From Thermoclostridium sp. (lineage in GTDB: Bacteria; Bacillota; Clostridia; DSM-8532), in contig JAGOJH010000012.1 of assembly GCA_017995215.1 (NCBI GenBank), positions 1-48,171 of the forward strand: a DNA stretch of 48,171 bases, written 5' to 3'. A model generated the notes under the pieces. It worked only from the letters and a program-made list of their open reading frames with translations, made no database searches and had not been told where the DNA came from. Below, piece after piece: positions 22,771 through 26,116 of the stretch (positions are counted from its first letter, which is position 1; each line of letters starts with the position of its first letter). A program made the translations under genes and the position numbers.

Positions 22771-22799
22771 TTGAGAAATATTCTAAACACCCATATAAA
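22771..22799 (+). promoter_or_regulatory. Sigma-A promoter for the kinase-nuclease/HPRT pair
   Basis: TTGAGA (22771-22776), 17-base spacer, TATAAA (22794-22799), about 33 bases before the start codon of the first gene. Confidence 0.65.
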
Positions 22800-22831
22800 T
22801 ATGTGGTATAGTATTTCTGAGGAAGGTGGTT

Positions 22832-23785
22832 GTGTTGCCCATTATAACAATATCAAGGCAGGATGGAAGCCTTGGGGATGAAATAGCGGAATTATTATCC
22901 GCTAAACTGAACATGGAGCTTGTTGGAAGAAAAACAGTTATATCCGGTTGGTTGTCAGAGGTGGCAAGCAAATATCAGCTGCACATGCTGGAGGAAAGCC
23001 CAAAGTTTTATCTGACAGAGTTTATGGATGGGTTAACCTTTAAGGAATACATTGAGATGCGGCTTCTGGAGGCGGCCGAAAGCTCCTCCATGATAGTTGT
23101 GGGTATGGGAGCACAGTTAATATTCCAGGAGCATCTTCAATCACTTAAGGTCAGGATTGTGGCCTCTGATCAAAACAGAATCCAGCGTCTGGCGAGCAAA
23201 TATGGCATACCCGAAAACGAAGCACAAAGGCTGATAACGCAAAGCGATAAAAAACATAGAAAATACCTGTTCACGCTGTACCAGGCTGAATGGGAAGATA
23301 CCCTTGCCTTCGATTTGGTGCTCAACACCGATCATCTGTCAGTCGAGCAATGCGCAGAGATGATCGCCGGATATGTTCAATCAAGCCAATTCATGTCCTC
23401 CTATATAAAAGCGAATCTGGAAAGTAAAACGAATACAGAGGTGTGTTTCAAGCACCCGGCCGAGGCTGAATTCGCCAGGATCCTGGATATGTATGGCATT
23501 GAATGGCAGTATGAGCCGCGAACTTTTCCTGTAAAATGGGATGCTGAGGGAAATGTGACAATGGCTTTCAGCCCGGATTTTTATCTGACCAAATTCGATA
23601 CATATATCGAGATCACCACGATGGATCAGAAATATGTCACAACAAAGAATAAAAAGGTTAAACGGCTGCGGGCGCTGTATCCGTATATCAATATCAACAT
23701 CGTCTACAAAAAGGATTTCCACACATTGCTCAAGCGGTTCGGCTTCAGCGGAGAGGATGAAATCAATGAATTTAACAGGAGTTAA
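22832..23785 (+). CDS. Cytidylate-kinase-like domain fused to a PD-(D/E)XK nuclease-like domain
   Basis: About 317 residues. Residues 1-195 match the cytidylate-kinase-like (AAK) family: PIITISRQDGSLGDEIAELL is the P-loop region (without the usual Lys), then VVGMGAQLIF, VRIVASDQNRIQRL and SDKKHRKYLFTLY. Residues about 200-317 form a second domain with an AEAEFARIL helix, SPDFYLTKFD (D249), YIEITTM (E260) and then TKNKKVKRL. This is the order of a PD-(D/E)XK nuclease core, with Thr in place of the usual Lys. GTG 22832 and TTG 22835 are both usable with GGAAGG upstream. The 3' end overlaps the HPRT gene by 20 bases, so the two are translationally coupled. Biochemical role unknown. Confidence 0.7.
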   Translation: MLPIITISRQDGSLGDEIAELLSAKLNMELVGRKTVISGWLSEVASKYQLHMLEESPKFYLTEFMDGLTFKEYIEMRLLEAAESSSMIVVGMGAQLIFQEHLQSLKVRIVASDQNRIQRLASKYGIPENEAQRLITQSDKKHRKYLFTLYQAEWEDTLAFDLVLNTDHLSVEQCAEMIAGYVQSSQFMSSYIKANLESKTNTEVCFKHPAEAEFARILDMYGIEWQYEPRTFPVKWDAEGNVTMAFSPDFYLTKFDTYIEITTMDQKYVTTKNKKVKRLRALYPYININIVYKKDFHTLLKRFGFSGEDEINEFNRS

Positions 23786-24317
23786 GAACATTATTTTCAC
23801 TGAAGAGGTGATCCGAAACAGGATACAGCATATGGGCCGGCAGATCAGCAATGACTACAGGGATAAAAACCCCGTTTTAATCAGTGTTCTGAAAGGAACC
23901 ATGTATTTTACCGCTGATCTGACAAGGCAGATGGATATTCAGATGAACATCGATTTTATGTCTATCGGCGTATATCCGGGGATCACTAAAAATACAGGCA
24001 TCGTTCGAATTAACAAGGATTTGGACATTAATATCACCGGAAGGCATATTCTGATGATCGAGGATATCATTAATACGGGCTTGACGATGAGCTATCTCGT
24101 GCAAAACATGGAGGCCAGGAAACCTGCCAGTATCAAAGTTTGCACGCTGCTAAACAACCCCCACAAACGGCTGATGAATATTCCGCTGGAGTATGTGGGC
24201 TTTCAGGTTCCCGATATCCTTCTGGTGGGATACGGCATCGATTACAAACAAGAATTCCGACATCTTCCATATATTGCAGAGTTTGATGAGAATCTTTACG
24301 AGAACCGGCAAACCTGA
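23766..24317 (+). CDS. Hypoxanthine phosphoribosyltransferase-like protein (atypical active site)
   Basis: 183 residues, usual HPRT length. Normal HPRTs join hypoxanthine or guanine to PRPP for purine salvage. Visible motifs: VLISVLKGTMYF (PPi-binding loop), the PRPP loop ILMIEDIINTGLT (about 95-107), CTLLNNPHKR (about 130-139) and VGYGIDYKQEFRHLPYI. In canonical enzymes the PRPP loop reads EDIID[TS]G and the Asp is the general base; here it is Asn (N103). That may reduce or alter catalysis, so a specialised role with the overlapping kinase-nuclease gene is possible. ATG 23766 is favoured by GGAGAGG 9 bases upstream. Confidence 0.82.
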   Translation: MNLTGVKNIIFTEEVIRNRIQHMGRQISNDYRDKNPVLISVLKGTMYFTADLTRQMDIQMNIDFMSIGVYPGITKNTGIVRINKDLDINITGRHILMIEDIINTGLTMSYLVQNMEARKPASIKVCTLLNNPHKRLMNIPLEYVGFQVPDILLVGYGIDYKQEFRHLPYIAEFDENLYENRQT

Positions 24318-24428: not shown

Positions 24429-25343
24429 ATGAAAATAGATCGTTTGCTGGCCATAATGACCATATTGCTGCAGCAGGAAAGGGTGACCGCACCAGTTCTT
24501 GCTCAAAGGCTTGAAGTATCAAGAAGAACGATTCACCGGGATATTGAAGATATTTGTAAAGCGGGAATTCCCATTGTTACAATCCAGGGGGCAAACGGTG
24601 GAATATCCATCGCTGAAGGTTTCAAACTGGACAAAAATGTATTTACCATCGACGAGCTTCAAGACATTATAACCGGGCTAAACAGCCTCAGAAGCGTATC
24701 AGACACTGTAAAAATTCAATCGTTGATTTCAAAGCTGAATCCCGGAAATAATACCGACTACTCCATGGACGGAAAAATACACATCGACCTTGCCTCCCAT
24801 TACAAAACAAGTATTACCGAGAAAATTAATCTGATCAAAAAAGCAATTCTTGAAAACAAGCTGATATCTTTTGATTATTATTCAGAAAAAGGACAATTCA
24901 AACGGAAAATTGAGCCTTACTCCATATCCTTCAAGTGGTCTGCCTGGTATGTGCTGGGTTACTGTGTAAACCGAAATGATTTCCGTTTTTTTAAACTGAA
25001 CCGGGTCTGGAACCATGAGATCCTGGATGAAGGTTTTGTCCCCAGGGAAATTCCTGACCAAAAGCTCGACTTCGATCATTTTTTTGTTGATGAAAATCGA
25101 ATCACTGTTTTGTTTGATCCTTCCGTGAAGTACCGTGTTGTTGAAGAATATGGCCCTAACTGCTTTAAAACTGAAGAAGATGGCAGGTTAAAATTCTCAA
25201 CCGGCTATACCAACCGCGAGTTCATCATCACCTGGGTGATGAGCTTCGCAGATAAGGCCTGCGTGCTCGAACCGGCCGATATTGCAAGGGAGGTTAAAGA
25301 ACGTGCGATGAATATTGTCCAGCTTTATGAACATGTCATATAG
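24429..25343 (+). CDS. WYL-domain transcriptional regulator (YafY-like)
   Basis: 304 residues. An N-terminal HTH_11 domain (about 1-60, ERVTAPVLAQRLEVSRRTIHRDI) binds DNA. A WYL domain follows from about 135 (SFDYYSEKGQFKRKIEPYSI, KWSAWYVLGYCVNRNDFRFFKLNRV), then a C-terminal WCX extension. WYL domains sense ligands, often nucleic-acid fragments or nucleotides. ATG 24429 follows GAGGTTATC; a longer frame to 24381 has no binding site. It is followed by the AlkZ-related gene on the same strand. About 33 percent of its residues look shared with the regulator at 30970; this is an estimate by eye. Confidence 0.88.
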   Translation: MKIDRLLAIMTILLQQERVTAPVLAQRLEVSRRTIHRDIEDICKAGIPIVTIQGANGGISIAEGFKLDKNVFTIDELQDIITGLNSLRSVSDTVKIQSLISKLNPGNNTDYSMDGKIHIDLASHYKTSITEKINLIKKAILENKLISFDYYSEKGQFKRKIEPYSISFKWSAWYVLGYCVNRNDFRFFKLNRVWNHEILDEGFVPREIPDQKLDFDHFFVDENRITVLFDPSVKYRVVEEYGPNCFKTEEDGRLKFSTGYTNREFIITWVMSFADKACVLEPADIAREVKERAMNIVQLYEHVI

Positions 25344-25444
25344 TTGTCATGTTTCATAAGTTATTCTGTATAGGAGGGTATTTCAAAACGATCCCTCTAG
25401 GTTCATCAAACAGGGTTACCTGATATATCGGAGGGCATATGGCA

Positions 25445-26116
25445 ATGCTTACAAATTATGATAATTTTATTGAACGAGTGAATGAACTGGGTTTTATGGC
25501 ATTTTCAAATACGCTGCCGGGTTTCCCGTCATTGACAGCGGAAACACCCGAAGGGATCTGGCATACCGGTAATCCGGAAACCGACCCGTGGCGCTGGAAG
25601 GACAGGGCAGCGGAAGAGAAAAAGCTGGCCTTTGGATGTGTTCTCGGAGGAAACAAAGGGTTTATTGCACCCCATATGTATGTCTGCTTTTACGCGGCCT
25701 GTCAGCCGGAAGAGCATATGGAAGAGCTTCAGACATTTGGTTTGCTCAGCCCCGAGGTCTGGCAGCTTTGGCAGCTCTTTGAAACCAAAAGCCCCTTGAG
25801 TACCGGTGAGATCCGCCAGGAGATGGGGGTTACGAAAAAGACCGGCGGCAGCAGGGTGGACAAGGCTATTTCAGAGCTGGAGCGGATATTCTATATTACC
25901 GTGGCAGGAAGTCGTAGAAAAACGGATAAGTTTGGGCAACCTTTCGGTTGGGCAGCCAATGTGTATGATAAAGTGGAGAATTGGGCACCGGAGGAATGGA
26001 TGGCTGAGAGCCAAAGCATCCGCAGAGAAGAGGCCAGAAACAGGATTCTTGATCGGGGGCTGGCCATTTCACAGAACACCAGCAGGGAGCAGCTGGCCGC
26101 AATGTTGAAGTTTTAG
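25445..26116 (+). CDS. AlkZ-related winged-helix protein
   Basis: 223 residues. The sequence carries the hallmark WHTGNPETDPWRWKDR (about 39-54) and a following GGNKGFIAPHMY, seen in proteins annotated as AlkZ-related. A winged-helix segment follows (LSTGEIRQEMGV, then SRVDKAISELERIFYITVAG). AlkZ-type proteins unhook DNA crosslinks, but the QxQ/QxE catalytic motif of true AlkZ is not evident, so glycosylase activity is unproven. GGAGGG is 8 bases before ATG 25445; an ATG at 25439 is too close to it. It lies about 100 bases after the WYL regulator gene and may be its target. Confidence 0.6.
   Translation: MLTNYDNFIERVNELGFMAFSNTLPGFPSLTAETPEGIWHTGNPETDPWRWKDRAAEEKKLAFGCVLGGNKGFIAPHMYVCFYAACQPEEHMEELQTFGLLSPEVWQLWQLFETKSPLSTGEIRQEMGVTKKTGGSRVDKAISELERIFYITVAGSRRKTDKFGQPFGWAANVYDKVENWAPEEWMAESQSIRREEARNRILDRGLAISQNTSREQLAAMLKF

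Follow-up and report, generated by a model that had tools for sequence, protein, structure and literature searches.

A nuclease-like domain co-inherited with a clade of hypoxanthine phosphoribosyltransferases that has lost its catalytic aspartate at least twice

The window analyzed here is a 48,171-nucleotide stretch of Thermoclostridium sp. (contig JAGOJH010000012.1, assembly GCA_017995215.1). A first-pass annotation, made from the letters of the window, had drawn attention to two forward-strand genes, and both were confirmed where it had placed them. Gene 1 encodes a protein of 316 aa (P0001) and gene 2 a protein of 183 aa (P0002). The features of the locus are as follows.

22784..22812, + strand: weak sigma-70-like promoter match, TAAACA-17-TATAGT, 9/12, with TG before the -10 element
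22820..22826, + strand: ribosome-binding-site-like AGGAAGG upstream of gene 1, read directly from the sequence
22835..23785 including the stop (22835-23782 coding), + strand: gene 1, a fusion of a PF13189 cytidylate-kinase-like domain and a T7-endonuclease-I-like nuclease-like domain (ND), 316 aa
22841..23335, + strand: cytidylate-kinase-like domain PF13189, residues 3-167, with the P-loop-like RQDGSLGDE (profile match)
23453..23761, + strand: ND, a PD-(D/E)XK domain of T7-endonuclease-I type, residues 207-309, ~103 aa
23462..23470, + strand: ND motif I, E210 and E212 (HPAEAEF)
23573..23581, + strand: ND motif II, P247-D248-F249
23609..23617, + strand: ND motif III, E259-I260-T261, with Thr replacing the usual Lys
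23645..23656, + strand: ND motif IV helix, K271 and K274
23766..24317 including the stop (23766-24314 coding), + strand: gene 2, a hypoxanthine phosphoribosyltransferase (HPRT) paralogue of the ND-linked clade, 183 aa
24060..24080, + strand: PRPP loop EDIINTG, E99-G105, with the N103 codon (24072-24074) replacing the catalytic Asp

Gene 1 starts at TTG 22835 or at an upstream GTG (22832 or 22826); the AGGAAGG lies 5 nt from GTG 22832 and 8 nt from TTG 22835. The residues D249 and E260 of the first-pass annotation are D248 and E259 of P0001, as that count began one codon upstream. The 20-base overlap of the genes was borne out by the ATG of gene 2 at 23766 and the end of the gene 1 stop codon at 23785. 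The one promoter claimed for the pair is a weak candidate, corresponding solely to the 9-of-12 match at 22784-22812, which does not exceed chance for the region (8 such sites found, 6.4 expected). Two genes downstream of the pair, at 25439-26116, an AlkZ-rel protein is encoded (PF24741, E 1e-60), and a WYL regulator gene (24435-25343) sits between it and the pair.

The N-terminal part of P0001 (residues 3-167) was assigned to PF13189 with E 7e-29 and 101.7 bits, above the cut-off of 28. It shares the fold and the Lys-less P-loop region of Cytidylate_kin2 proteins (3hdt, 3fdi) and differs from them in being fused to ND and in the changes GSGGR to GSLG[D/R/S] and VGR to VGMG found in the gene 1 type. 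The P-loop Lys reported as missing is indeed absent from gene 1; its absence is family-wide, since plain PF13189 members read REYGSGGR, and was rejected as a special trait. In PADLOC, residues 77-189 of P0001 also weakly resembled the kinase portion of a viperin-kinase fusion (E 1.5e-5).

No Pfam match was obtained for the ND region of gene 1 in a Pfam profile search, and PF05367 scored ND proteins at 17-19 bits, below its cut-off of 29. The predicted nuclease-fold match of the C-terminal domain was found by several other routes. A profile of 35 ND sequences searched against the PDB retrieved T7 endonuclease I at E 3.5e-5 and 0.002, and profile-profile comparison by hhalign matched ND to five phage endonuclease I or resolvase proteins at 99%. 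A single ND query matched a Geobacillus phage endonuclease I by tblastn (E 2e-6; 50,697 phage records), and PHROG endonuclease and resolvase families matched as well. The AF2 model of ND (pLDDT 84) matched viral endonuclease I models in Foldseek at E 6e-7. Against the PDB the best Foldseek match of this model was weak (E 0.03); the top of that list consisted mostly of PD-(D/E)XK enzymes and included T7 endonuclease I, R2 endonuclease, Vsr, Bax1 and TnsA, which is consistent with the nuclease fold of the model rather than proof of it. Based on the homology of the core sequence, ND was assigned to the T7-endonuclease-I type of PD-(D/E)XK domains.

With T7 endonuclease I and PF05367, the phage Holliday-junction resolvases, ND shares a core of about 100 residues and the motif order E / PDF / ExX. 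Unlike them, it is cellular and tied to HPRT, and it carries Thr in place of the catalytic Lys and two invariant Lys residues in the following helix. The PD-(D/E)XK order with Thr for Lys, read earlier from the window, was thus recovered in P0001 as D248, E259 and T261. Among the 35 aligned ND sequences both Glu positions of motif I were invariant, as were K271 and K274 in the helix after motif III; in A2 numbering the invariant residues include E14, D52, E63, K75 and K78. The motif III Lys was replaced by Thr in all 35. Other families of the superfamily are known in which Lys has likewise given way to Thr and a Lys stands in the motif IV helix (PMC1913061), and some PD-(D/E)XK enzymes are active although E, Q or N occupies the Lys position (PMC4081073). 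K271 and K274 are candidates for a migrated catalytic Lys and may substitute for that of motif III; given the first precedent, ND could still be a nuclease. It may also be catalytically dead.

ND-like stretches (E 1e-4 to 1e-7) were also seen inside ORFs of 750-960 aa at loci L096-L101 (genomes G220, G080, G317, G213, G401 and G097). Two of these ORFs were scanned and proved to be UvrD/Rep helicases that carry a C4 zinc ribbon, so that UvrD helicases probably contain a PD-(D/E)XK-like insert.

Gene 2 scored 183.3 bits with TIGR01203 (HGPRTase), above the cut-off of 150. It shares with HPRTs such as T. tengcongensis 2geb and B. anthracis Hpt-1 the whole fold, the EDxxxTG motif, the KG of the PPi loop, D193 and R199. 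In contrast to these proteins, it is altered at four positions: D137 to Asn, S103 to Val, K165 to Asn and F186 to Leu. The first of these removes the catalytic Asp of EDxxD[ST]G, and the Asn reported in the PRPP loop was confirmed as N103 of P0002 (codon AAT). The residues for PRPP and Mg/PPi were all present (K68-G69, E133, D134, T138, G139, D193, R199). A flexible loop with Val-Tyr instead of Ser-Tyr and an Asn at K165 were common to 9/9 sequences of the window's group. A further difference from the typical HPRT is that the protein is inherited with ND while a normal HPRT is also present; in the window's genome the latter reads EDLIDSG and lies between tilS-like and ftsH-like genes. The literature searched held nothing relevant on an Asp-to-Asn HPRT, and the change alone need not abolish phosphoribosyltransferase (PRTase) activity.

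A scan of the genome collection with ND alone gave 35 loci, 34 of which also had HPRT, the exception being L045. Both domains lay in one ORF in 15 of the 34, or 16 with L048, where ND is broken over two frames. At E below 1e-30, ND was present in 17/391 Clostridia and 132/400 Chloroflexota genomes, nearly always as one copy; other phyla were scanned with two peptide patterns, and the domain may be more widespread. The observation is far above chance, because homologous pairs occur in two phyla. Calditrichota had been considered as a third and was rejected, since locus L022 (JAJGRE010000001.1, 'Calditrichales bacterium MX18-03') falls in the window's class as G181; it was counted with Clostridia, and the title of the record looks misassigned. 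A plasmid search returned only the Thermomicrobium roseum megaplasmid and one chance-level dnaE match.

In Clostridia the arrangement is that of the window, a kinase-like-ND gene followed by HPRT. Chloroflexota have mainly a direct ND-HPRT fusion or adjacent ND and HPRT genes, some Anaerolineae-like loci have kinase-like, ND and HPRT genes as three separate units (L029, L031, L168, L173, L178), and genomes that we label Dehalococcoidia-like by inference encode a single GAF-ND-HPRT protein. The N-terminal partner of ND is thus swappable, being either the kinase-like domain or GAF. Fused and separate kinase-like domains clustered in a tree with weak support (76), and a kinase-ND-HPRT trio may be the ancestral arrangement. 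The direct fusions, the GAF variants and the roughly half of ND-linked HPRTs that keep the Asp had been missed by the first-pass annotation. The AF2 model of one fusion (L035) was poor (pLDDT 62) and was not used. At one locus (L168:1-4321, G528) a second, canonical-type HPRT (DDIVDTG) was noted on the opposite strand near the kinase-like, ND and ND-clade HPRT genes, and at another (L180:1935-3887, G505) the ND gene was partly duplicated in tandem, the second copy ending inside the nuclease-like domain.

The coupling of ND to HPRT was examined in a tree of 187 HPRT sequences. The ND side held all 116 ND-linked HPRTs and seven from genomes with ND elsewhere, together with two rows that had initially counted as lone, L048 and L123, the latter from a genome where ND is unlinked (L045). 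On the opposite side were 34 lone HPRTs of ND genomes and eight normal copies of unlinked-ND genomes, and all 20/20 HPRTs from ND-less Chloroflexota genomes fell outside the ND clade. The branch separating the clade had moderate support (SH-aLRT 85). Among genomes with an unlinked ND and an HPRT over the cut-off, 7/8 carried an ND-clade HPRT elsewhere, against 0/18 ND-less genomes (Fisher p 1e-5, the genomes being partly non-independent). Pairwise distances of ND and HPRT were correlated with r 0.83, the permutation maximum being 0.08. It was concluded that ND and one HPRT clade are co-inherited, whether fused, adjacent, or unlinked with both present.

The residue at catalytic position D137 was then tabulated for 117 ND-linked HPRTs: Asp in 56, Asn in 45, Arg in 13 and others in 3. 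The Asp was thus lost in 61, the replacements being Asn, Arg, Thr and Gly, whereas 22 of the 23 HPRTs initially scored as lone had it, the exception being L048. Tree parsimony gave six residue changes at this position, and the Asp was lost at least twice, separately in Clostridia and in Thermomicrobia-like Chloroflexota. Its loss was accompanied by that of the flexible-loop Ser, which was gone in 45/45 Asn-type sequences, and the loop was shortened in many Asn-type Chloroflexota. In Clostridia K165 was mostly Asn and F186 was Leu, Tyr or Trp; by lineage the two positions read N/L in Asn-type Clostridia and N/W in the Arg type. Across the clade E133, D134, T138, G139, D193 and R199 were kept near-universally while S103, Y104, K165 and F186 drifted. 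The co-occurrence of the Asn with the partner was counted: EDxxNTG in the HPRT frame was found in 5/391 Clostridia genomes, ND-linked in 5/5, and no HPRT gathered from beyond the ND clade had Asn at the catalytic position. One ND-less genome encodes an HPRT-like protein with Glu at this position, the branch of which is very long (L351, G447).

A normal HPRT was present in all 16 Asp-less genomes checked, namely that of the window and 15 others. The ND-linked protein was the only HPRT over the cut-off in 6/26 Asp-type genomes; since 56 of the 117 keep the Asp and these six genomes have no other HPRT above that score, enzymatic salvage is likely in such lineages.

When the window was compared with a same-genus relative, dN/dS was 0.023 in ND, 0.030 in HPRT and 0.14 in the kinase-like domain. 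ND was the most conserved part of the pair between relatives, and the kinase-like domain the fastest-evolving and least conserved. Strong purifying selection acts on both ND and HPRT, and with ratios this low the loss of catalytic residues is not decay.

No neighbors of the pair recurred across lineages, and conserved operon partners were rejected, the neighbors being lineage-specific. Within the Thermomicrobia-like loci L028-L048, a short protein resembling a (2Fe-2S) ferredoxin, with no Pfam match, stood beside the ND-HPRT fusion at 13 loci, and an Fpg/MutM-like gene at 8 loci as a lineage-specific synteny. A PADLOC family search gave weak partial matches for P0001 and none for P0002.

We tentatively favor, with somewhat less than even confidence, a reading of the pair as one functional unit in which ND would be controlled by a dedicated HPRT paralogue acting as a sensor of PRPP, purine nucleotides or (p)ppGpp. 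A nucleotide-sensing role had been suggested from the window, and it is plausible and better supported than the sequence alone allowed, since the nuclease-fold match was obtained and the Asn did not prove common among HPRTs lacking the partner. The PRPP pocket of known HPRTs is also a binding site for (p)ppGpp (PMC6783271), and in Bacillus PurR a catalytically inactive PRT domain senses PRPP and (p)ppGpp and controls a DNA-binding domain (PMC8789054). The sequence pattern of the HPRT (the pocket kept, catalytic residues lost, a nucleic-acid domain attached) would fit a PurR-type regulator, and by analogy the pair is best read as a PurR-like conversion that started from HPRT and acts on a nuclease-like domain. 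Both would join a PRT pocket without catalysis to a nucleic-acid domain. They differ in that Firmicute PurR combines a winged helix (wHTH) with its PRT-fold sensor, whereas here the nuclease-like domain takes the place of the winged helix and the sensor derives from HPRT; as two-domain proteins they are not homologous, and the wHTH (PuR_N, PF09182) was absent from P0001 and P0002. That the two work in the same way is a proposal.

We proposed that the window HPRT has given up salvage and would bind PRPP, a purine nucleotide or (p)ppGpp instead. Ligand binding would then activate or shut off ND, in the way that the PRT domain of PurR controls its DNA-binding domain. ND would bind, and probably nick or cut, branched DNA or RNA by means of a Lys displaced to its motif IV helix, and the kinase-like domain, or GAF in the Dehalococcoidia-like genomes, would add a second input. 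The loss in Clostridia of K165, the purine-oxygen contact, would weaken guanine recognition, so that PRPP is probably a likelier ligand there than (p)ppGpp. Where the Asp is retained, the HPRT may have two functions, as salvage enzyme and as sensor. A stronger version, which we give little confidence, is a nucleotide-gated endonuclease conserved in Chloroflexota (Dehalococcoides probably among them) and present in Clostridia as well, in which an HPRT-derived pseudoenzyme would sense PRPP or (p)ppGpp and thereby allow a T7-endonuclease-I-like enzyme to process branched DNA or structured RNA.

It is unlikely that ND is a dead nuclease which solely binds DNA or RNA, making the pair a PurR/PyrR-like regulator of nucleotide metabolism. 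The uniform Thr at the motif III Lys position would agree with this, PurR itself is built in just this manner, its PRT-fold sensor being joined to a DNA-binding domain (PMC8789054), and varied genomic contexts would suit a trans-acting regulator. However, the invariance of E14, D52, E63, K75 and K78 goes beyond the usual need of DNA binding, and active enzymes with other residues for Lys are known (PMC4081073).

We considered it distinctly unlikely that the HPRT-like protein is still a PRTase, with a different base as substrate, such as a modified purine set free by or displayed on ND-bound nucleic acid. In its favor, K165 and F186 change by lineage while the PRPP shell is kept, and selection is strong. 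The shortened loop of many Asn-type Chloroflexota and the uniform loss of the Ser in the Asn type speak against catalysis of any kind, and no modifying-enzyme neighbor recurred.

A defense-like role, also suggested by the first-pass annotation, was left unsupported. As an anti-phage or abortive-infection system, the HPRT-like and kinase-like domains would sense nucleotide depletion and ND would kill, which appears very unlikely in spite of the patchy distribution in Clostridia (17/391) and the relation of ND to phage nucleases. Retron type III and DprA-PRTase systems do employ other PRTase domains in an effector or partner role (PMC12548924, PMC9122126), and there a PRTase-fold protein is likewise paired with a nucleic-acid-related one. 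Their partners are a winged helix and DprA, neither of which was seen with ND-HPRT. Moreover, no PADLOC family fitted and no defense genes recurred nearby, a third of Chloroflexota genomes carry the pair, almost always in single copy, and in some genomes the Asp-type member is the only HPRT.

Ordinary purine salvage, in which the Asp-to-Asn change of a second HPRT would be harmless and its partner domain accessory, is the least probable reading: although gene 2 passes TIGR01203 and Asp-type members of the clade look fully catalytic, all the Asp-less genomes checked have a normal HPRT, the window protein bears three further active-site changes (S103, K165, F186), and the ND partner is constant.

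The sensor reading remains the preferred one. In the literature searched, no paper described an HPRT linked to a PD-(D/E)XK domain, whether GAF was part of the arrangement or not. HPRT is among the best-known housekeeping enzymes, and here a whole clade of it is tied to a nuclease-like domain, with catalytic residues lost at least twice. ND-HPRT would at the least add a further variant to the PRT-fold regulators, and it may even represent a type of nucleotide-gated nuclease not seen before. If the sensor reading is true, salvage annotations in Chloroflexota would be partly wrong (the ND-clade protein of Thermomicrobium roseum is annotated simply as hypoxanthine phosphoribosyltransferase), and a link of purines or alarmones to nucleic-acid processing would become testable with two small proteins. 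If the nucleotide-gated endonuclease is true, purine status or the stringent response would be coupled to DNA recombination or RNA decay.
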